Of a stretch of 45,882 nt of DNA, positions 10,785-45,882 are shown piece after piece. This DNA is from Candidatus Binatia bacterium (GTDB taxonomy: Bacteria > Vulcanimicrobiota > Vulcanimicrobiia > Vulcanimicrobiales > Vulcanimicrobiaceae): the NCBI GenBank assembly GCA_035541935.1, contig DATKMJ010000026.1, forward strand, positions 1 through 45,882, given 5' to 3'. The position numbers were made by a program, and so were the translations under genes. The notes under the pieces are model-generated. The model saw only the letters and a list, made by a program, of their open reading frames with translations, had not been told where the DNA came from and ran no database searches. Each line of letters opens with the position of its first letter. The first letter of the stretch is position 1.

Positions 10785-13700
10785 ATGAAGTTTGCGCGTA
10801 CCTATTCTGTCCCCGGCGACCCCTATGCCGGTGTGACGTTCGAGCCGCGAGACTCGCGGATCGTCAATCCCGACGGCTCGGTCATCTTTGAGGCCAAGGA
10901 TGTCATGGTGCCGGCGACCTGGAGCCAGGTCGCCGTGGACGTCCTCGCCCAGAAGTACTGCCGCAAGGCGGGAGTACCGACCGCGACCGTCCGCGTGCCG
11001 GAAGATGGCGTGCCGCAATGGCTTCAGCGCTCGATGGCCGACGTCGAGGCCCTTTCCCGCGACGACCAGTTCGGGGCGGAACGCGACTCGCGCCAGGTCT
11101 TCAACCGCATGGCCGGCTGCTGGACCTACTGGGGCTGGAAGCACGGCTACTTCGACTCCGAGAACGACGCGCAGATTTACTTCGACGAGATGTGCGCGAT
11201 GTTAGCGCGCCAGATCGGTGCGCCCAACTCTCCGCAGTTCTTCAACACCGGCCTGCACTGGGCGTACGGCATTTCGGGACCCGCGCAAGGTCACTGGTAC
11301 GTCGAACCCGCCGATGGCATGGCAATCCCGTCGACCGATACCTACACTCGGCCGCAAGTTTCGGCGTGCTACATCCTCGGAATTGACGACGACTTACTGA
11401 ACGAAGGCGGCATTTTCGACGGCGTCGTGCGCGAAGCGCGCATCTTCAAAGGCGGCTCCGGAAGCGGCGCTAACTTCTCGAAGATTCGGGCGGCCGGCGA
11501 AAAGCTGACCGGCGGCGGAACGTCGAGCGGTTTGATGTCGTTCCTCAAAGTCTTCGATCGCGCCGCCGGTGCGATCAAGTCGGGCGGCACGACGCGGCGC
11601 GCCGCGAAGATGGTCGTGCTCAACGCCGACCATCCCGACATCGAAGCGTTCGTCAACTGGAAAGTGCGCGAAGAGCGCAAGGTCGCCGATCTCGTCATCG
11701 GCTCGCGCGTCTTCGAGCGCCACCTCAACGCGATCATCTCCGCGGCGCACGACACGCGCGTTCCCGACCACGCGCGGCTCGATCCCGCCCTCAACGCGTC
11801 GTTGCGCGGCGCAATTCGCGAAGCGCTCGCCGCCGGCATACCGTCTGGCGCCGCGCAGAACGCGCTCGACTACGCGCGCCAGGGATACACGCATTTAGAG
11901 ATCGAGAAATACGACGTCGGCTGGGATTCCGAAGCATACGTCACCGTTTCCGGCCAGAACTCGAACAACTCGGTGCGCTTGAGCAACGGCTTCTTCGAAG
12001 CGCTCGATCGCGACGAGGATTGGTTGCTGACCGCGCGCACGACCGGCGACGTAGTCAAGCGCATTAAGGCGCGCGATCTGTGGGAGCAGATCGGCCTGGC
12101 TGCATGGCAGTCCGCCGATCCCGGCTTGCAGTTCGACGATACGATCCAAGAGTGGCACACCTGTTCGAACGACGATCGTATCAACGCAACGAATCCGTGC
12201 GTTACCGGCGACGCGCTCGTCGCGACCGCCGACGGACCGGCGCGAATCGCCAGTCTCGTGGGCAAAGCGGCGTTCGTCGTCGGTGCCGACGGTAGGCCCC
12301 ATCTCGTCAACAATATCTTCCCGACCGGAACGAAACCCGTCTATCGTCTTCGCACGAAGGCGGGCTACGAACTCGACCTCACCGCCGACCACAAGGTCTG
12401 GACGGAGAATCGCGGCGACGTACCAGCGTCGGAACTGCAACGCGGCGATCGGATCGCTTTGAGCGGGTCGGGGTTCGGCGCGGTCGCCATCGACACGAAC
12501 CTCGCGCTCGGCATCGGCACGGCTATCGGCGACGGCTGCGTAGCGAATTCAGGCGGTCTCATCATCACCATGCACGAAGACGAATACCCGGTTCTCAGCG
12601 ACATCGCCGGCGCAATCAATCGGGTCAAATCGCAATTCCAGGACGATGGCCGGGCTCGCCGTGCGACGACCGCAACGATTCCCGCGCAGGGCACCGGATC
12701 GCGCATTGCTACCGGGAACCGGCGAGTCGTCGAACTTTTTTCACGCTACGCGGTCCTCGATGCCGGCAGTGCGCAGAAAAAGTTCACCGACGCCGTCTAC
12801 GAGCTCGACCAGCAATCGACGTCGGCGATGCTGCGAGGCCTCTTCACGGCCGACGGCACGGTGGCGAACTATGGATCGAAATCGCAATACGTCTCGCTCG
12901 ACTCTTGCTCGCCGACGCTCCTCAAGCAGGTCCAGCACCTTCTCCTCTCTTTCGGGATCAAGTCAAAACTCTACACCGACCGGCGTACGGAGCTCGTTGC
13001 GTCCTGCCCGGACGGTAACGGCGGCCGCGCCGAGTACCGCGTCGTGCAGATGCACTCGTTGCGCATCTCGCGTACCTCACGTCTTGCGTTCGAGCGCGCG
13101 ATCGGCTTCCATCCGGCCTCGCATAAGGCCCGCGCTCTCGCCGGTCTCAACGCATCGGTGAGCTGCTACTCGGAGCGCCTCGTCGACGATTTTGACTCGG
13201 TCGAACCACTCGGTACCGCTGCAGTCTTCGATCTCACCGAAAACGAGACGCATCACTTCGTAGCTAACGGGTTGCTCGTGCACAACTGCTCGGAATACGT
13301 CTTTCTCGATGACACGGCGTGCAATTTAGCTAGCCTCAATCTCGTCAAGTTCCTCAACGACGACGGCAACTTCGACGCGCAGCGCTTCGCCGACGCGACG
13401 CGCATCTGGACGACGACGCTCGAGATCTCCGTCGCCATGGGACAGATGCCGTCGAAGAAGATCGCCGAGAAGAACCACGGCTATCGCACGCTGGGCCTTG
13501 GCTACGCAAACCTCGGCACGCTGTTGATGCGCATGGGCCTACCGTACGACTCCGAGGAGAGTTTCGGATGGTGCGGCGCCATCAACGCGCTTCAGACCGG
13601 GATGGCGTATCGCACATCGGCAGAGATGGCGCAACAACTCGGACCCTTCGCACGCTTCGAGGCGAATCGCGAGCCGATGCTGCGCGTCATCCGGAACCAT

Positions 13701-16700
13701 CGCCGGGCCGCGTATGCCGTCGATGCGAGCGAGTACGAAGGACTCACCGTGAAGCCGGTAACGCATCAGCCGACGCTCTTCACGCAGAAGACCTGGGCGC
13801 TGGCGCGCAAGATGTGGGACGAAGCGCTCTCGACCGGCGAGGTTGCCGGCTATCGCAACGCCCAGGTCACGGTCACCGCTCCAACCGGCACGATCGGGCT
13901 CGTGATGGACTGCGATACGACCGGCATCGAGCCCGACTTCGCGCTCGTGAAATTCAAGAAGCTCGCCGGCGGCGGCTACTTCAAGATCGTCAATCAATCC
14001 GTCGACGCAGCGCTCCACAAACTCGGCTACTCGCAAGAGCAAATCGAGGCGATCGAGACCTACGCGAAGGGAACCGGAACCCTCGAAGAAGCGCCGCACG
14101 TCAACCGCGCGACGCTGAAAGCGAAGGGCTTCGACGACGCGGCGGTCGAGCGCGTCGAGGCCGCCTTACCGGGCGCGTTCGAACTCGCGTTCGTCTTCAA
14201 CAAGTTCGTGCTCGGCGAGGAGTTCTGCAAAGAGCGGCTCGGGTTGACCGAGGAGCAGCTCAACGACTGGAACTTCTCGATTCTGCGCGATGGTCTTGGC
14301 TTCACGGCGCTGCAGATCGAAGAGGCTTCGGCACACATCTGCGGCCGGATGACGGTCGAGGGCGCGCCGGATCTCAAAGACGAGCATCTCGCGGTCTTCG
14401 ATTGCGCGACGCCCTGCGGGAAGTACGGCACGCGTTACATCCGGCCGCTCGCGCACGTGGACATGATGGCCGCGGCGCAACCGTGGGTCTCGGGAGCGAT
14501 TAGCAAATGCGTCGTCGGCAACACGCTGCTGACGACGGAAGACGGGCTCGTGCGAATCGGATCGCTGCATCGCGGCGAAGCCGAGGACACGTTCCGATCG
14601 GAAGCGCTCGAGGTCGCCTCGCTCAATGGGGCGCGATCGACGGATGCCTTCTACTACGGCGGAGAACGCACCGTTCGCGAAATCCGTCTCCGTTCCGGGC
14701 ACCGCGTCGTCGGAACGCCGAATCACCGCGTCCTCGTCTGCAACGATCGCGGTTTGATATGGCGGCATTTATCGGAAATCGAGCCCGGCGAGTACGTCGC
14801 GGTTCAGTACGGCGACGATATGTGGTCCTCCAGTCCGGCTCGCTTTGATGACTTTCGGCCATCGCCGGCGCACGGCTCGCAAAAGCGAATCGACGTGCCC
14901 GACGCCATGACGTCGGATCTCGCCTTCTTCCTCGGCGCCTACGCCGCCGAAGGGCATACGTCGCGATGCAATTACACGGTCGTCATCACGAACGGCGTCG
15001 ACGTCGTTCTGGAACGGGTTCTCGATGCGGCGCGCGCGGCATTCGGCATCGAAGGCAAAATCCTGCGGGCGCCCGGCAAGTGCCCGGTTATCACATTCGC
15101 CTCGAAGACGTTGGTCGAGTTCCTCGAGTATCTTGGCTGCGGCTCTCGAGCGAGAGAGAAACGCATTCCGGATAGCGTGCTGCGCTCGCCGCGCGAACAC
15201 GTACGGGCTTTTCTCAGCGGGCTATTCCTCGATGCGTACGTCACGACCGGCGCGCTCGCCAAGTGGGCTATCTGTCTCGACTCTCCGGCCCTTCTCGACG
15301 ATCTCCAAGCCGTCCTCACGAACTTCGGCGTCGTTCATAGCCGCATCGAGAAATACAACAAAGAATACGCTAAGTCGTACGGAGAGGTCTATGCGACCGG
15401 ACGGCAGGCGCAGAAGCTTCTAGCCCTCATCGCGTTCCCAGAGCCCGTAAAACTTGCGCGAGCGATGATCCCCCTACACCGCGCCGGAGAAGGGCCGCGA
15501 ATTCGCGGCAAGCACTCGCATCTGCTCGACGAGCGGACTCGAGCGGTTTCCTGGGAGAGCGTGCGTCGCCTCTCGGAGCAGGTCGAGTTGCCGCAATGGC
15601 TCGACGAGATCGTCAACCGCAACCTCCATTTCAGCCCTGTCGACCACGTTGCCGATGCCGGAACGCGAGAGGTTTACGATATCTCGGTTCCCGAGACGCA
15701 CGCGTTCGTCGGTAACGGCATCGTCAACCACAATACGATCAATCTTCCGCAGACTGCGTCGATCGAAGACGTCAAGGAAGCGTATCGCTATTCGTGGGAG
15801 CGGATGATCAAAGCCGTCGCACTCTACCGCGACGGGTCGAAACTCTCCCAACCGCTCGCGGCGAGCTACGACTTCGGCGGCGATGCGACGGGAGAAGAGA
15901 CGGCCACCGCGCCGCAGCCGTTCAACACGCCGCTGCAGATCGCCGAGAAGCTCGTCTACCGCTACATTGCCAAGCGGCGGCCGATGCCGCAGCGGCGCAG
16001 CGGCTACACGCAGAAGGCGACGATCTCGGGCCACAAGGTCTACCTGCGCACCGGCGAGTACGAAGGCGGCCAACTCGGCGAGATCTTCATCGACATGCAC
16101 AAAGAGGGCGCGGCCTTCCGCTCCCTCATGAACAACTTCGCGATCGCGATCTCGCTCGGCTTGCAGCACGGCGTGCCGCTCGAGGAGTTCGTCGAAGCCT
16201 TCACCTTCACGCGCTTCGAGCCGAACGGACCGGTCGTCGGTCACGATCACATCAAGATGGCGACCTCGATCCTTGACTACATCTTCCGCGAGCTCGCGGT
16301 CAGTTATCTCGGCCGCTACGACCTCGCGCACGTGCAGCCGTCGATGCAGATGGATGCGATGGGGCCCGAGGCGCAAGAGGAGTACATCGGCGAGGAAGAG
16401 GCGGGCGTCCACGTTCGTCCGGCCGGCGTCGCCGAGCGGCTCCATCCGGTCAGCGCGCACCTGCATCCGGGAATGGACCCCGAGCCGCCTTCGTCGCACG
16501 CACCGCCCGGCAACGGCGGGAACGGCGGCGCAAACGGTAACGGCGGCAGCAACGGCGGCGCAACCGCTACGGCGGTCGCCACGCTCGCGCGAACCGAAGC
16601 GGTCAACGCGTCGAAGGCCAAGGGCTATACGGGCAACGCATGCTCCGAGTGCGGCCAGCTCACGATGGTGCGCAACGGCGCGTGCGAGAAGTGCGACTCC

Positions 16701-16727
16701 TGCGGAGCGACTTCAGGATGCAGTTAG
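10785..16727 (+). CDS. nrdJ: Class II (B12-dependent) ribonucleotide reductase with two inteins
   Basis: Reduces ribonucleotides to deoxyribonucleotides using adenosylcobalamin to form a thiyl radical. The 1980-residue precursor would yield a 1208-residue enzyme after removal of inteins of 363 and 409 residues. Visible motifs: [15 protein letters not shown] and [15 protein letters not shown] near the N-terminus, redox Cys195 (VSACYILG), the [13 protein letters not shown] loop, the radical-site N-x-C-x-E in NPCSEY (Cys835 in the precursor, 472 after splicing), the partner Cys 11 residues later, and phosphate-binding APTGTIG. After the catalytic barrel comes a Gly/Asn-rich linker (about 1900-1935) and a Cys-rich tail (CSECG...CEKCDSCG) that probably reloads the active-site disulfide. 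The start ATG has GAGGAA at 8-nt spacing; an earlier GTG at 10758 is possible but less likely. No ATP-cone is seen. Confidence 0.97.
12198..13286 (+). other. Intein 1 in NrdJ (363 residues, LAGLIDADG type)
   Basis: The protein-splicing element starts at Cys472 ([14 protein letters not shown]-terminal splice block), has the block B Thr/His in LTADHKVW and ends [12 protein letters not shown], with penultimate His and terminal Asn followed by Cys+1. It interrupts NP|CSEY, so the +1 nucleophile is the thiyl-radical cysteine of the reductase. The central region has two LAGLIDADG-type helices, [11 protein letters not shown] and [10 protein letters not shown], both keeping the acidic residue, so the homing endonuclease may be active. 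All splice-junction residues are intact. Confidence 0.95.
14508..15734 (+). other. Intein 2 in NrdJ (409 residues, LAGLIDADG type)
   Basis: Begins at Cys1242 ([13 protein letters not shown]), carries the block B motif GTPNHRVLV and ends [13 protein letters not shown], with penultimate His and terminal Asn. The +1 extein residue is Thr. It splits the conserved GAISK|TINLP segment of class II reductases. LAGLIDADG-type helices appear as [10 protein letters not shown] and [10 protein letters not shown]; acidic residues remain (Glu and Asp), but both motifs are degenerate. It is longer than intein 1 and shows no close similarity to it, so the two probably arrived independently. Confidence 0.95.
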
Positions 16728-40213: not shown

Positions 40214-41163
40214 ACGTTTGCCTCCGCCGGCGCGTCGAGCAGCGCCTGCAGTCTCTCGACGCCGCCAAAATCGCTGACGACGATCGTCGCCGGCGCACCG
40301 GCCATCCGCTTCATCAGCGCGCCGAGCACGTTGCTCGCACCGAACTCCACGACGAGGCCGGGCGTGTATTCGAGAATGCGCTGCGCCGTGTCGTGCCAGC
40401 GCACCTCGTCGACGACCGAACGAATGAGGTTTCGTTTGATCGTCGCGACGTCGCGGTAGGGCCGGCCATCGACGTTTGAGATCACGTCAATATTCGGCAT
40501 CCCAAAATCGCTTGCTTCGACGACGGCGCGCAGCGGTTCGAGAGCGGGCTCCATGAGCTCGCTATGCCAGGCGCCCGAGACGTTGAGCGCGACGACGCGC
40601 TTTGCGCCGGCGTCGAGCATCGCCGCGGCCGCCGCCTGCACTGCATCGTAATCGCCGCTGATGACGATCTGCGTCGGCGAATTGAAGTTTGCCAGGCCGA
40701 CGCGCCCGCCGAGATTCGCGCGCTCGCGCTCGAGCACACCGCGCACCTGCTCGGCCTCCAGGCCTAACACTGCCGACATGCCGCCGCGCGCGATCCGCGC
40801 CGCCGCTTGCATCGCTCGCCCGCGCTCGGCAACGATGCGCAGCGCCTGTTCGAACTCGAGCGATCGCGCGATGACGAGGCTGCAGAGCTCTGCAAACGAA
40901 TGGCCGGCCGTGACGACCGGTTCGAGCCGATCGCCGACGGCGGCGTAGAGCGCCAGATTCGTCGTGAAGATCGCCGGCTGGCTGAACTCGGTCTCGCGCA
41001 GCCGCTCCTCGGGACCGTTGCGCTGCAGTGCGAGCAGATCGTAGCCGAGGACGAGCGCCGCGCGGTCGAAGAGTTCTCTCGCGCGCTCCGAGCGTTCGGC
41101 AACCTCGCAGCCCATGCCGACGCACTGGGAGCCCTGGCCGGGAAAGACCGCGGCGACGCGCAT
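40210..41163 (-). CDS. fabD: Malonyl-CoA-acyl carrier protein transacylase
   Basis: Transfers malonyl from CoA to ACP to supply elongation units. The 317 residues start with [16 protein letters not shown], contain nucleophile Ser89 in AGHSFAEL (the family's GHSxGE, here with Ala replacing the usual Gly), and His200 in SGAWHSELM. The GlnPGQGSQ oxyanion region (about 9-13) is intact. Start ATG 41161-41163 overlaps the fabH stop in TGATG and is where the conserved domain begins. The GHSFAE variant is worth noting but does not remove a catalytic residue. Confidence 0.95.
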
Positions 41164-42152
41164 CACGCCGCCCACCGCCATGCGACGGCTCCCCATGAGA
41201 GGCCGCCGCCGAAGGCAACGAAGACGACGAGGTCGTCGGGCTTGAGCAACCCCGCGCGCACCGTCTCGGAGAGCGCGAGCGGAATCGACGCAGCCGACGT
41301 GTTGCCGTACTCGGCGATGTTGACGATCACTTTATCTTCGGGCAGTCCCAAGTAGCGCGCCGTCGCGTCGATGATGCGGCGGTTCGCCTGATGCGGAATC
41401 AGATACGTGACGTCGGATTTCCTCAGGTTGGCTTTGCGGAGAACGCTGTCGGTTGACTCGACCATCTTGGTGACGGCGAGCTTGAACGTTTCGGGGCCGG
41501 CCATGTGAATGAGGTGGACTTTCGCATCGAGCCCGGCATGGTCGATCGGGCGGCGCGCTCCGCTGCCGTGCGCGTAGAGCAGGTCGGGGCGGCTGCCGTC
41601 GGCCCCGAGATCCGAAGCGAGAAAGCTGCTCTCTTCCGAGCTCTCGAGGATCACCGCGCCCGCGCCGTCGCCGAAGAGGATCGCAGTCGAGCGATCGTCC
41701 TTATCCAGAATCTTCGAAAGCGTCTCCGCGCCGATCAGCATGATGCGGCGGTAGACGCCGGAGCGTATCAAGCCGGATGCAACGGTCAAACCGTAGATGA
41801 AGCCGCTGCAGGCGATCTCGATGTCGAACGCCGGCTTATCGGTGACGCCGAGATGCGAGGCGACCAGACAGGCGGTGGCCGGGAAGAAGTAATCGGGGGT
41901 GACGGTGGCGACGATGAAGCAGTCGATGTCGTTGGGCTGCAATCTCGCATGCGCGAGGGCCGCGCTCGCCGCGGCGGAGGCCAGATCGCTCGTTCCTTCT
42001 TCTTCGGTAGCCCAGTGGCGGCGCTTCATCCCCGTGCGGGTCGTGATCCAATCGTCGGATGTGTCCAGCCAGGCTTCGAGATCGTGATTCGTGATGACGC
42101 GCGGCGGCGCGTAGTGGCCGACGCCGACGATCTTCACCCCAGTGGCGGGCAC
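41163..42152 (-). CDS. fabH: 3-oxoacyl-ACP synthase III
   Basis: Initiates fatty acid synthesis by condensing acyl-CoA with malonyl-ACP. The 329 residues keep the catalytic triad Cys115 (IEIACSGFIYG), His254 (IPHQANRRI) and Asn284 (EYGNTSAAS). The N-terminal ITNHDLEAWLDTSDDWITTRTGM is a strong family signature, and the C-terminal FGGGLSWGAV closes the fold. The start is a GTG at 42150-42152, 1 nt after the rpmF stop. plsX, which often sits between rpmF and fabH, is absent. Starter-unit preference (acetyl or branched) cannot be judged from sequence by eye. Confidence 0.96.
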   Translation of the reverse strand: MPATGVKIVGVGHYAPPRVITNHDLEAWLDTSDDWITTRTGMKRRHWATEEEGTSDLASAAASAALAHARLQPNDIDCFIVATVTPDYFFPATACLVASHLGVTDKPAFDIEIACSGFIYGLTVASGLIRSGVYRRIMLIGAETLSKILDKDDRSTAILFGDGAGAVILESSEESSFLASDLGADGSRPDLLYAHGSGARRPIDHAGLDAKVHLIHMAGPETFKLAVTKMVESTDSVLRKANLRKSDVTYLIPHQANRRIIDATARYLGLPEDKVIVNIAEYGNTSAASIPLALSETVRAGLLKPDDLVVFVAFGGGLSWGAVAWRWAA

Positions 42153-42153
42153 T

Positions 42154-42348
42154 CTAGCCGGCCGACTCGTCTTGCATCTTAACGACTTGCCGGCCCTTAT
42201 ACGTGCCGCAACTCGGGCAAGCGAAATGCGGCCGCTTCGGCTGGTGACACTGCGGGCATTGCACGGTGGTCACCGCGCCCAGCTTCCAGTTGGCGGCGCG
42301 GCGGCTGCGAGTCTTGCTGCGAGGCGTCTTCCACTTTAGATTCGCCAC
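42154..42348 (-). CDS. rpmF: 50S ribosomal protein L32
   Basis: A 64-residue zinc-ribbon ribosomal protein. The N-terminus MANLKWKTPRSKTRSRRA is the family pattern (usually AVPKRKTSKSR) and the zinc ligands are CPQC and CPSC. The last ten residues form a short acidic tail. It follows the DUF177 gene by 25 nt and precedes fabH by 1 nt, the common DUF177-rpmF-fab arrangement. Confidence 0.95.
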   Translation of the reverse strand: MANLKWKTPRSKTRSRRAANWKLGAVTTVQCPQCHQPKRPHFACPSCGTYKGRQVVKMQDESAG

Positions 42349-42373
42349 ATCGGTCTCCGTCTTACGAGCAGTA

Positions 42374-42844
42374 TTATAAAGATTGCACGCGGTCGCACGG
42401 ACATTCGCCCAGATTGCGGTTCGCCCCGCAACTCGCGCAGAGTCCCTTGCATTCGGGGCTGCAGCGCAGACCCATCGGCAAGGCAGCGAGGACGCTCTGC
42501 GCCGCCAGGTCGGCGACGTCGAGCCGCTCCCCGGTCAGCACGTTGCTCTCCCCGAACGGGTCGACCTCGCGTCCCCGCGAGGGATCGAGCCGCTCATCCA
42601 CGTCGACGTGGATCGTGCGGTCCACGTCTTCCAAGCATCGGTCGCACTCGCCGTGAGCCCGCACGTCAACGGTGCCCTCGACGACGAGCATCCGGTCGGC
42701 TTGGCGCAGTTCCAGCTGCACGCGGGCCGGTTCCGGAAAATCGAGTCCTTCGAACGGCGCGATTCGCACCTCGTCGGAGACCACCATGAGCTGGCGGCTG
42801 CCGGCGAGGAGGCCGCCGATATCGACCCAATGCGAACGATCCAT
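42374..42844 (-). CDS. DUF177 (YceD) family protein
   Basis: A 156-residue protein of the YceD/DUF177 family, found beside rpmF across bacteria and linked in E. coli to 23S rRNA accumulation. Visible are the ECDRCLEDV Cys pair (about 91-98), a central acidic region and the C-terminal SPECKGLCASCGANRN plus ECPCD, a likely zinc site. Start chosen as ATG 42842-42844. An earlier ATG at 42881-42883 lies inside a leader hairpin and would add a Gly/Cys-rich stub unlike the family. First gene of the fatty-acid/ribosome operon. Confidence 0.9.
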   Translation of the reverse strand: MDRSHWVDIGGLLAGSRQLMVVSDEVRIAPFEGLDFPEPARVQLELRQADRMLVVEGTVDVRAHGECDRCLEDVDRTIHVDVDERLDPSRGREVDPFGESNVLTGERLDVADLAAQSVLAALPMGLRCSPECKGLCASCGANRNLGECPCDRVQSL

Positions 42845-42868
42845 CAGAAGTAGTCCACCGCAACATGA

Positions 42869-42891
42869 GACCCCGCCAACCAAGCGGGGTC
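42869..42891 (-). promoter_or_regulatory. Hairpin in the leader of the DUF177-rpmF-fab operon
   Basis: On the minus strand GACCCCGC, a 7-nt loop, then GCGGGGTC form a perfect 8-bp stem. It lies between the predicted transcription start (about 42901) and the DUF177 ATG (42844), covering about 23 of 57 leader bases. It has no trailing T-run. It could be an attenuator, a protein-binding site or a stabilising 5' structure. Confidence 0.55.
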
Positions 42892-42966: not shown

Positions 42967-43632
42967 ATGAGCATCGATCCCATCGCCTCGAAGCTCGCCT
43001 CGGAGGGCGTGGCCTACGCCCCGCAGATCGCCGGCGCCGCCCGCCGGCACGGGCTCGACCCCGGTTTGCTTGCCGCCGTGGCAGCGCAAGAGACCGGCGG
43101 CCCCGATACCAACGCGGGCCACAACGAGGTCGGCGACGGTGGCCACGGGCGCGGCCTCTTCCAGATCGACGACCGCTGGCATGCGTTCGCCTCGACTCCC
43201 GCGGCGATGGACCCGGGCGCCAACGCCGATTACGCGGCCGGGATGATCTCCGGCTTGCTCAAGCGCTACGGCGGAAACGTTCGCTCTGCGCTCTCCGCCT
43301 ATAATGCCGGCTCCCCCACGGCGACCGGCACGAGAACCCGCTGGTCCGACGGGAGCGATCTCTCCTACGCCGATTCCGTGCTGCGCCACTACCAACGCCT
43401 CACCGGCGGCCCCGCACAATCCTCGGAATCGACGCAATCGACCGCAATTGCCGAGTCGGGCAGCGAGATCGCCTCAACCGGCGTGCTGCGCGCTCGGGCA
43501 CAGCGCCTTCCGTTCGTGGCGCCGATCGCTGCCTCCGCACACCAAACGCGGCCGAATTCTGCGAATTACAGCCGAGCCGCGACCGATTACGTCGCCCTCT
43601 TCAACGACGACACCGACGAGAACAACTCGTAG
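42967..43632 (+). CDS. Lytic transglycosylase (SLT domain) without signal peptide
   Basis: A 221-residue protein with a Slt/lysozyme-like domain at about 17-150 that would cleave peptidoglycan. Catalytic Glu42 lies in AAVAAQETGG, the GHGRGLFQID segment matches the family's GxxGLMQ block, and ALSAYNAGS matches its AYNAG block. No signal peptide or membrane segment is present, so export would need another route or association with an envelope machine. The C-terminal 70 residues are low-complexity and end NYSRAATDYVALFNDD..., a tail shared with the next protein. The start ATG has no strong ribosome-binding site; GGGGGA lies about 15 nt upstream. First of four plus-strand genes, divergent from the DUF177 operon. 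Confidence 0.85.
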   Translation: MSIDPIASKLASEGVAYAPQIAGAARRHGLDPGLLAAVAAQETGGPDTNAGHNEVGDGGHGRGLFQIDDRWHAFASTPAAMDPGANADYAAGMISGLLKRYGGNVRSALSAYNAGSPTATGTRTRWSDGSDLSYADSVLRHYQRLTGGPAQSSESTQSTAIAESGSEIASTGVLRARAQRLPFVAPIAASAHQTRPNSANYSRAATDYVALFNDDTDENNS

Positions 43633-43649
43633 AACAGGAGAAAAACACC

Positions 43650-43961
43650 GTGTCATCCCTCCCTTCGATCGAAGGAACGATCTCCGCCAAACCGCTCGGC
43701 AACACGCTCTGCGGCGCGCTCGGCGGCACGCTGCGCGGCGCTCCGGGAGGCGCGAGCGGCACGCTTCGCGGGGAATCGCCCGATTCGCCCGAGAGCGCCG
43801 CGGTCGCCGAGCTCGGCAATCTCATCAACTCGCTCGGAACGCTCTCCTCACAGGCGCAAAGCCTCCCCCTGAGCGCTCCGACGCTCCCGCAACTGCCGCA
43901 GAACCAAAGTTATCGCCCGCAGGCGACCGATTACACGCAGCTCGCCGACGAGTCGAACTAA
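43650..43961 (+). CDS. Small hypothetical protein with shared motifs
   Basis: A 103-residue protein I do not recognise. The N-terminus is a Gly-rich stretch (about 15-40) with LGNTLCGALGG, which resembles LGNAIGGALGS in the next protein. A helical segment (about 48-70) and a Pro/Leu-rich stretch follow. It ends SYRPQATDYTQLADESN, closely like the transglycosylase's tail. Start GTG 43650 has AGGAG with 8-nt spacing, and the gene follows the transglycosylase by 17 nt. No signal peptide is seen. Function unknown; the shared sequences suggest binding to the same partner as its neighbours. Confidence 0.78.
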   Translation: MSSLPSIEGTISAKPLGNTLCGALGGTLRGAPGGASGTLRGESPDSPESAAVAELGNLINSLGTLSSQAQSLPLSAPTLPQLPQNQSYRPQATDYTQLADESN

Positions 43962-43980
43962 AGAGTAAAGGAGCGACGAC

Positions 43981-44313
43981 ATGGCATTCCTGCTTCCCGT
44001 CCTCGAGGGACTCGGTTCCGGCCTGCTCGGCAACGCGATCGGCGGCGCGCTCGGAAGCGGCGTCGCCGGCAACGCCGAGAACTCCGCGATGAACGCGCTC
44101 AACTCGCAAGACGAACAGTTTCAGTTGAGCATGTACGCTTCGGAGCTCCAAAACCAAGAGCAACTCCAGATGCAATCCGAAGTCTTCGATCAAATGATGG
44201 ACGAGCGCAGCGAGAACATGCGCGAGGTGGATACCCTCCGCAACGTCGACATGGCGCAGCGCAAGATGGACGACAGCATTACGAAGAAGTTCATCCAGTC
44301 GATCACCGAATGA
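43981..44313 (+). CDS. Small glycine-zipper/helical hypothetical protein
   Basis: A 110-residue protein. Residues 9-31 form a Gly-zipper-like hydrophobic helix (LEGLGSGLLGNAIGGALG...) that could insert in or oligomerise at a membrane. Residues 42-108 are a long, strongly helical, charged and Gln/Met-rich stretch, consistent with a coiled coil. General resemblance to small filament- or rod-forming secretion proteins is noted, but no family can be assigned. A clean AGGAG ribosome-binding site precedes the ATG, and the stop overlaps the next gene (ATGA). It shares the LGNxxxGALG block with the preceding protein. Confidence 0.78.
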   Translation: MAFLLPVLEGLGSGLLGNAIGGALGSGVAGNAENSAMNALNSQDEQFQLSMYASELQNQEQLQMQSEVFDQMMDERSENMREVDTLRNVDMAQRKMDDSITKKFIQSITE

Positions 44314-44525
44314 TCGCACCGCTTCTCTCGACTCGCACCGAGCGCACCACGACGGGGCGCGGCACGACCGCCGCGCCCCGCGTCGCGGCCGCGCATCAGG
44401 CGTTCGACGACGAGGCGGCCGAGCGCGCCGAGATTCTCCGCGAGCACGAGGTGCTGCAGCTGCTGCTCATGGAGTTCCTCAAGAACGAGGACGAGATCAT
44501 GAAGAAATGGATCGCGCTTATCTAA
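44310..44525 (+). CDS. Small helical hypothetical protein
   Basis: A 71-residue protein of unknown function. A Thr/Arg/Ala-rich N-terminus (1-28) leads into a single charged amphipathic helix (about 30-70: AFDDEAAERAEILREHEVLQ and on) likely to form a coiled coil or to bind another helix. It overlaps the preceding gene by 4 nt (ATGA), so it is probably made in a fixed ratio with it. No domain is recognised. Last gene of the cassette; a strong hairpin follows within 5 nt. Confidence 0.75.
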   Translation: MIAPLLSTRTERTTTGRGTTAAPRVAAAHQAFDDEAAERAEILREHEVLQLLLMEFLKNEDEIMKKWIALI

Positions 44526-44575: not shown

Positions 44576-45882
44576 CTAAAGGGCGTTGGCTAGAGCCCAC
44601 CCCTGCGGAGCACCGATACCCGCTGCTTGATTGTACTGCGTAGGGCTGCACGAGTATCCCCCGTTATTGCCCGACGTGCACGGCGTGTAGTACGTGCTGT
44701 AGCCTGTCTGCGAGAAGAGGCTGTAAATCGTCGGATCGATCCAGCCTAGCTTTGCCGAGTGAAGCTCGTTTGCTTCGAGAATCAGCGCCACTGAGGCCGG
44801 CGAGGACCAGGACGTGCCTAAGTATTCGCCCCATTTGCCGCCCGTGTAGACAGCAACGGGATAGAACGGCAGCGAGATGTCGGGCTGATTGCGGCCCGAC
44901 GTAATCATGCCGGTGATCCCGCTCTGGTAGCTCGGCAGCGCGAAGACGGTCGATACGCCGCCGCCGCCGGAGTAACCGTCGACGTTGCCCATCGTCACCG
45001 TTTCCAGAACGCCCTGGCTGGTGTCGGTGAAATCGATCCCGCCGATCGATGAGAAGTACGGGTCGCCGGCCGGTGCGCTAACCCCTTTGCCTCCGCATTC
45101 GTTGCTGCCCGAGTCACCGCTCGACGCCGAGAACTCAACGCCCTCCGAAGCGCCTTGCTCCGCGATGGAATTCGTCGAGTCGTCGAACGAAACGTCGCTC
45201 GATTCGCATCCGCCGAAGGAAGAGTTTACAGCCGTGGCTTTGCCGTCGGTCAACACTTGGTTGTACGTATCCTCTATGTGTTGATCGGTTAGGGATCCCA
45301 TATCGTATACGATGATGTTCGCTCCGGGAGCCAATCCGGAAATGGTTTGTACGTCGAGGTCCGTCTCGGCATCGTCGCCGTGGCCGCCGCCGTCGACGGA
45401 TTCATTGGTGACCGTGCCGGTCTGCGTGACGCCGGAGGCGGATAGGTAGGTCGCGAGATAGCTCGTGTTCACCGGGTCGTCGATTGCGACGGCAGCCGTA
45501 TACCCGGCGCCGTTGCATCCGTGCTGCACGGGGAAGTCAAACGGCTTGGCGACGCCCGTGGCCAGCGTTCCGGAGGAGTTCGTAAGAGGTCCGTTGTCCG
45601 CCGGGGCACCGTTGCATCCGCTGCTAGGCGTCGACGTCGGAGTCGGAGTTGGAGTCGGAGTTGGAGTCGGAGTTGGAGTCGGCGTTGGAGTCGGAGTTGG
45701 AGTTGGAGTCGGAGTTGGAGTCGGCGTCGGAGTCGGCGTGGGTGACGGACTCGCCGTTGGCGTGGGCGACGGAGACGGAGACGGAGATGGCAACGAGTTA
45801 TGCCGCGGCTTTGTCGCTGCGACGGTGCGGACGACGGTCAAGCTATTTATTGAGATGTCGCGAACGAGGGTTGCGATCGATT
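44576..45882 (-). CDS. Sedolisin (S53) family peptidase with Thr-Pro linker, 5' end outside window
   Basis: Subtilisin-fold serine-carboxyl peptidase, active at low pH in the known members. The catalytic Glu and Asp are in AETDLDVQ (Glu and Asp four apart), the oxyanion Asp in SSGDSG, and the nucleophile Ser in [12 protein letters not shown]-terminal pair of Cys (TPCTSG, YSCSP) may form a disulfide. The first 60 visible residues are a linker of repeated Ser/Thr-Pro. The frame stays open to base 45882, so the N-terminus, including any signal peptide or prodomain, lies outside. A TTG at 45839-45841 is the only start-like codon in the visible end and would leave no signal peptide. An extracellular enzyme is likely. 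Confidence 0.9.
45630..45792 (-). repeat. Tandem repeat encoding the Thr/Ser-Pro linker
   Basis: Short repeat of GGAGTC, GGAGTT and GGCGTC-like hexamers on the plus strand, which read as alternating Thr-Pro codons on the minus strand. Units vary mainly at the third codon position, so the protein sequence is more regular than the DNA. The array is prone to slipped-strand length change in multiples of 6 bp, which would alter linker length without shifting frame. Confidence 0.9.

Follow-up and report, generated by a model that had tools for sequence, protein, structure and literature searches.

The lytic transglycosylases IagB, EtgA and IpgF are small SLT enzymes whose cutting of peptidoglycan makes way for a type III apparatus; they carry a Sec signal peptide and are encoded in the type III locus. 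In EHEC, l0045 is reported to be critical for type III secretion (PMC2912269). How flagella are related to injectisomes is a long-standing question for which there are few living intermediates, the main example being the non-flagellar systems of the Myxococcales, in which FlgBC and FliE are absent (Abby and Rocha 2012, PMC3459982). Here we compare with these systems a cassette found in a stretch of 45,882 nucleotides (the window) from a genome of the class Eremiobacteria, phylum Eremiobacterota (G000; 2.4 Mb in 71 contigs), together with an export cluster encoded elsewhere in the same genome.

The transglycosylase cassette and its distribution

An earlier note on this DNA described a four-gene cassette at 42967-44525 in which the last two ORFs overlap by 4 nt, and this arrangement was borne out. 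All four ORFs lie on the + strand and are judged coding by a codon-usage gene caller; they are named SLT, P2, P3 and P4 and are listed here with the adjoining operon.

41163..42883 (-): yceD-rpmF-fabH... operon, a conserved neighbour whose synteny identifies the cassette site within family f1 (same flank in relatives)
42967..43632 (+): SLT, predicted 221-aa lytic transglycosylase with a goose-lysozyme/SLT fold over residues 1-148 and a disordered, Pro/Ala-rich acidic tail
43417..43629 (+): SLT tail homologous to P2, C-terminal end YSRAATDYVALFNDDTDENNS, identified by BLASTP and a tail profile
43650..43961 (+): P2, 103 aa with a GTG start, its C-terminal ~60 residues an apparent copy of the SLT tail
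43981..44313 (+): P3, 110 aa, with a Gly/Ala-rich, mildly hydrophobic N-terminus and one long conserved helix
44310..44525 (+): P4, 71 aa, paralogous to the C-terminal helix of P3, its start overlapping the P3 stop by 4 nt

The cassette is divergent from the yceD-rpmF-fabH operon, and a convergent gene lies on the opposite strand beyond its other end. The window also contains a 421-aa ORF (44576-45841, -) with a long PT-repeat N-terminus and no Pfam match, and a 1980-aa class II ribonucleotide reductase ORF (10785-16727) with intein splicing and LAGLIDADG domains. The gene order, which the earlier note had singled out for checking, holds for SLT, P3 and P4: these are intact, in the same order and orientation, in 50 of the 66 loci examined, and several of the remaining loci end at contig ends. 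The cassette is conserved and vertically inherited, with the SLT-P3-P4 trio as its core and P2 as a genus-specific addition.

SLT matches PF01464 with an E-value of 1.7e-9 and a score of 37.7 bits, against a curated cut-off of 21.3. The catalytic E42 and the GLFQI and AYN-G motifs (G63-x-F65-Q66 and A111-Y112-N113-x-G115) are invariant or nearly so across 14 SLT homologues. The AF2 model has pLDDT values above 90 over most of the domain and below 50 in the tail, and its best Foldseek matches are goose-type lysozyme, MltF and Slt/Slt70 (probability 1.00), with TM scores of only 0.4-0.5 because one third of the model is disordered. Judged by domain score, motifs and lysozyme-like fold, SLT is a family 1 (SLT) lytic transglycosylase, with catalysis predicted. 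As the earlier note had stated, it has no signal peptide; none was found in 13 relatives either, and the N-terminus is non-hydrophobic in every homologue checked. Solitary SLT homologues with normal signal peptides, which the note held to speak against a multi-protein system, were not found among the homologues examined.

The resemblance between the ends of SLT and the 103-aa protein proved stronger than first claimed, extending beyond the ATDY motif as true homology over about 65-70 residues (BLASTP 9e-10) that is conserved within the genus. Given homology of this length, P2, which is restricted to the genus and has an N-terminus that differs between relatives, looks like a detached, stand-alone copy of the SLT tail. 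A profile of the tails matches SLT and P2 only, two proteins per genome, solely in the window's genus. Conservation of the tail in close relatives is partial: it is kept in the genus and lost in most of the family. Since the trio persists without the tail in other genera, we rejected the proposal that it acts as a general export signal. The LGNxxxGALG block that had seemed common to the 103- and 110-aa proteins is a chance resemblance in Gly/Ala-rich sequence (BLASTP E 0.06), because the P2 N-terminus varies between relatives. Thus, in the proposed chain of shared modules the link from SLT to P2 stands and that from P2 to P3 falls, and the real second link, which the earlier note missed, joins P3 to P4.

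P3 and P4 are paralogous through a C-terminal helix of ~55 residues (hhalign probability 98.7, E 2e-16) with the common pattern F-x7-SE-MRE-x3-LRD-x2-M-x2-RK-DD-I-KxFI-x-I, and P4 shows the pattern E-RAE-RE...K-EDEI-KKWI-LI. The AF2 model of P3, which is of low confidence (pTM 0.21), places helices at residues 5-24 and 28-109; the Gly-rich, mildly hydrophobic N-terminus is near or under the usual transmembrane hydrophobicity. The dN/dS of P3, 0.03-0.07 within one genus, indicates that it is a functional protein. Searches of Pfam, NCBIfam, PHROGs and PDB sequences gave no match for P3. Identification of P3 or P4 as a known T3SS needle, inner rod (SctF/SctI) or translocator was rejected, Pfam, NCBIfam and PDB sequences having yielded no match, as was identification of P3 as a phage protein, with no PHROG match and two viral-contig matches that look like prophages integrated into P3.

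In a survey of 107 genomes of the phylum, each at least 85% complete, P3 was present in 72, all of them in families f1, f2 and f3 of the class Eremiobacteria, and was not found in families f4-f14. The trio SLT-P3-P4 occurs in f1, P3-P4 in f2 and P3 alone in f3, where it adjoins rpmE at the loci inspected; where P4 occurs, in f1 and f2, it follows P3. Relatives in a public genome collection are labelled Eremiobacterota or simply bacteria, and the single Proteobacteria label among them is probably a mistake. Prophages or phage-like elements were observed inside P3, near the QRK-D codons, in G008 (L103, L104, L105), G014 (L101), G009 (L102) and G087 (L054), and two IMG/VR contigs (L122 and L123) likewise have a phage-like element inside P3. 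Two of the inserted elements carry large serine recombinases, and the P3 gene seems to have served repeatedly as an attachment site for phages.

The export cluster and its fate relative to the cassette

The suggestion in the earlier note that the enzyme might serve an envelope-spanning apparatus, with type III systems among the precedents, was made from a window devoid of apparatus genes. An apparatus of the type III kind is present in the genome outside the window, as a single cluster on a separate contig (C22; L041 6493-18794). This contains a 72-aa FlgB-like ORF (without a Pfam match and named from its position), an FlgC-like gene (Flg_bbr_C, 3e-6), FliE (2.6e-7), a FliF-FliG_M fusion, FliH and FliI; then another SLT enzyme, an unknown, FlgFG-like, FliM-like and FliN-like genes and FliP; and finally an MTHFR gene, FliQ, FliR, FlhB and FlhA. 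All eight type III export components (FlhA/SctV, FlhB/U, FliP/R, FliQ/S, FliR/T, FliI/N, FliF/J and FliN/Q) are therefore in one cluster. G000 has no Flagellin_N match and no match to the FliG torque domain, FliG_C, its sole FliG part being the partial FliG_M fused to FliF; FliG_C is also absent from 16 of the 24 relatives tested. Among the cluster genes there are none for the MotAB stator, the hook protein FlgE, hook-associated proteins, the secretin SctC or the needle SctF.

The cluster-type FlhA proteins of families f1, f2 and f3 group together in a clade specific to the class (100% support), distinct from the flagellar FlhA present as an additional copy in some of these species, and the range of this clade matches the groups with P3. 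In f3 the cluster FlhA is closely followed by SecD-SecF. The absence of flagellin and FliG_C, together with a separate class-wide FlhA clade, indicates the presence in the class of a second type III-type system that is ancestral and motorless. Vulcanimicrobium alpinus, which has been cultured, is reported to have neither flagella nor a flagellin gene (PMC9758169). One genome consisting of a single 3.5 Mb contig (G096) carries both cluster and cassette. Within the open-access literature, as far as our partial coverage of it extended, we found no paper describing an Eremiobacterial motorless system.

Several further features of these loci were observed. The MTHFR (metF-like) gene lies between fliP and fliQ (L041 13840-14736), an arrangement shared by G013, G084 and G085, and it remains where the cluster is deleted. 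In place of the SLT gene that belongs to the cluster, G084 and G085 have a gene of ~545 aa (L231 10838-12466; L234 9975-11615; L230 4363-6006), which by Pfam is an aspartyl (retropepsin-like) protease in G085 and G087 and in G087 outlasts the loss of the cluster. Genomes G044, G048, G050, G104 and others of families f5-f12 encode many proteins, up to about 10 per genome, whose match to FlhA is confined to its C-terminal cytoplasmic half (FHIPEP ~320-656).

The cluster, which is sited between DUF3810 and MTHFR/SecDF, has been deleted at the syntenic site in four genomes (G080, G081, G082 and G087) and has decayed to FliP and FliN remnants in a fifth (G021); neither FlhA nor an intact FliP was found elsewhere in these five genomes. 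The cassette is readable in three of them and each has a lesion: a nonsense codon in SLT (G080); a proline in P3, unique within the conserved helix among 76 P3/P4 copies and at a position occupied by Leu or Ile in the other 75, with SLT and P4 intact (G082); and a prophage-like insertion inside P3 together with a frameshift in SLT (G087). P3 was not found in G021 and G081, but their contigs end at the locus. Lesions were present in 3 of the 56 cluster-keeping genomes with a readable cassette, or 8 of 56 if lineages without SLT are counted. Two of the three are prophages in P3 (G008 and G014); the other is the sole true deletion in a closed locus, in G007, where FlhA persists with SLT truncated and P2-P4 lost, which shows that the cluster can outlast the cassette, at least temporarily.

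Fisher tests, with small counts and with shared ancestry ignored, gave p-values from 0.0006 (strict, with the leucine-to-proline change counted) to 0.07 (loose, with it left out), and 0.017-0.07 whenever this change, which was judged a lesion after the fact, was omitted; G070 (87% complete) was counted as cluster-bearing though only flagellar copies were found in it. A strict comparison of P3 and FlhA presence and absence was uninformative and was set aside, because most of the 'missing' P3 genes reflect contig ends or an absent fabH locus. These gene-level comparisons are suggestive of cassette decay accompanying loss of the export cluster. The earlier note thus emerges with its observations partly confirmed and its interpretation partly supported, in that an apparatus exists and its loss goes with damage to the cassette.

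Possible functions of the cassette

We tentatively favour, as a reading somewhat short of probable, that SLT opens peptidoglycan while P3 and P4 act as exported proteins or structural components, all serving the motorless export system. The trio, with P2, would be an accessory module to a motorless type III exporter that derives from a flagellum, is ancestral to the class Eremiobacteria and is encoded at a separate locus. In this mechanism the export gate FlhAB-FliPQR and the FliHI ATPase would export a short rod of FliE, FlgB-like, FlgC and FlgFG-like proteins, and the signal-less SLT would cut peptidoglycan, letting the rod or what comes after it cross the wall. The paralogous, all-helical P3 and P4 would be exported or membrane-side subunits that surround the rod or extend past it, as adaptors or filament-like elements, and P2 would be a spare SLT tail peculiar to the genus. 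A link between cassette and cluster is favoured by a genome that encodes an export system yet lacks flagellin and FliG_C, by the common range of P3 and the cluster FlhA clade, by the damaged cassettes of cluster-less genomes, and by the best NCBIfam match of SLT being the type III transglycosylase IagB (1.1e-7, below the cut-off). Against it, the cassette never adjoins the cluster in the loci inspected, G007 has FlhA but no longer a whole cassette, SLT and P4 are intact in the cluster-less G082, P3 and P4 match no needle, rod or translocator family, and the cluster has its own SLT gene in the window's genus, so a second is not obviously needed; the class-wide presence of both could also reflect plain vertical inheritance alone.

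The main rival, which we consider unlikely, is that the cassette works in the envelope independently of the export system, with P3 and P4 building a helical assembly at the membrane by which SLT is positioned or set free for wall remodelling, growth or lysis, possibly by a holin-like route. The position of the trio beside a housekeeping operon and never beside export genes would be explained in this way, as would the intact SLT and P4 of G082 without a cluster and the retention of FlhA without a cassette in G007. A Gly-rich, mildly hydrophobic P3 N-terminus might likewise suit a membrane role, but its hydrophobicity is near or under that usual for transmembrane segments. Moreover, P3 occurs in f2 and f3 without an adjoining SLT, implying that it does more than carry this enzyme, and all three readable cassettes of cluster-less genomes are damaged.

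The remaining explanations are improbable. A domesticated phage DNA-ejection or tail-tip module, with SLT resembling the internal virion protein gp16 and P3/P4 resembling ejection proteins, would account for the match of SLT to PHROG 342 (internal virion protein with an endolysin domain, 1.1e-10) and to further lytic tail families of phages, and for a T7 core protein among its Foldseek matches; however, SLT domains are widespread, P3 and P4 have no PHROG match below 0.04, the only two viral-contig matches are the apparent prophage integrations into P3, and the locus is vertical and syntenic across a family. The equally improbable idea that SLT and P2 are antibacterial wall-cutting effectors delivered to other cells, with P3 and P4 as cytoplasmic chaperones or adaptors, fits a signal-less enzyme whose disordered acidic tail is duplicated as P2 and a pair of small helical proteins, but no immunity gene is seen in the cassette, the tail is restricted to the genus, and P3 is far more conserved and widespread than SLT, opposite to what an effector-chaperone pair would show.

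Returning to the export-linked reading, a broader version of it, which we regard as rather doubtful, is that the class made an ancient and independent conversion of a flagellum into a non-motile export device, keeping the rod while losing motor and filament, with the home-grown paralogues P3 and P4 as external or filament-like subunits and with its own signal-less wall-cutting enzyme. The link between cassette and cluster is testable in the cultured relative V. alpinus, which comes from a volcanic ice cave, the group otherwise consisting of uncultured soil bacteria.

Comparison with known systems

SLT resembles the type III-associated transglycosylases in that IagB is its closest NCBIfam family, but its score of 31.5 bits lies below membership (equivalog cut-off, 208 bits), and it differs from them in having no Sec signal peptide and in being encoded on a different contig from the export cluster. 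The T7 internal virion proteins, or ejectosome, also combine an SLT domain with helical companion proteins that cross an envelope, whereas P3 and P4 have no sequence relation to phage proteins and the cassette is chromosomal and vertically inherited.

On its gene content, the companion cluster is neither a flagellum nor a standard injectisome. It shares with the bacterial flagellum the core export genes, rod proteins and C-ring FliMN, but has no flagellin or FliG_C, and its FlhA falls in a different clade from the flagellar FlhA proteins within the class. In contrast to the standard injectisome (NF-T3SS), it keeps the rod genes FlgC-like and FliE. It resembles the non-flagellar systems of the Myxococcales in having an export core without motility genes, flagellin or the FliG torque domain, and differs from them in retaining FlgC, FliE, an FlgFG-like protein and the FliF-FliG_M fusion. 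If our proposal is correct, the Eremiobacterial system would be a second and different intermediate between flagella and injectisomes, motorless and filament-less with rod genes and candidate accessory proteins, and present across a whole bacterial class.
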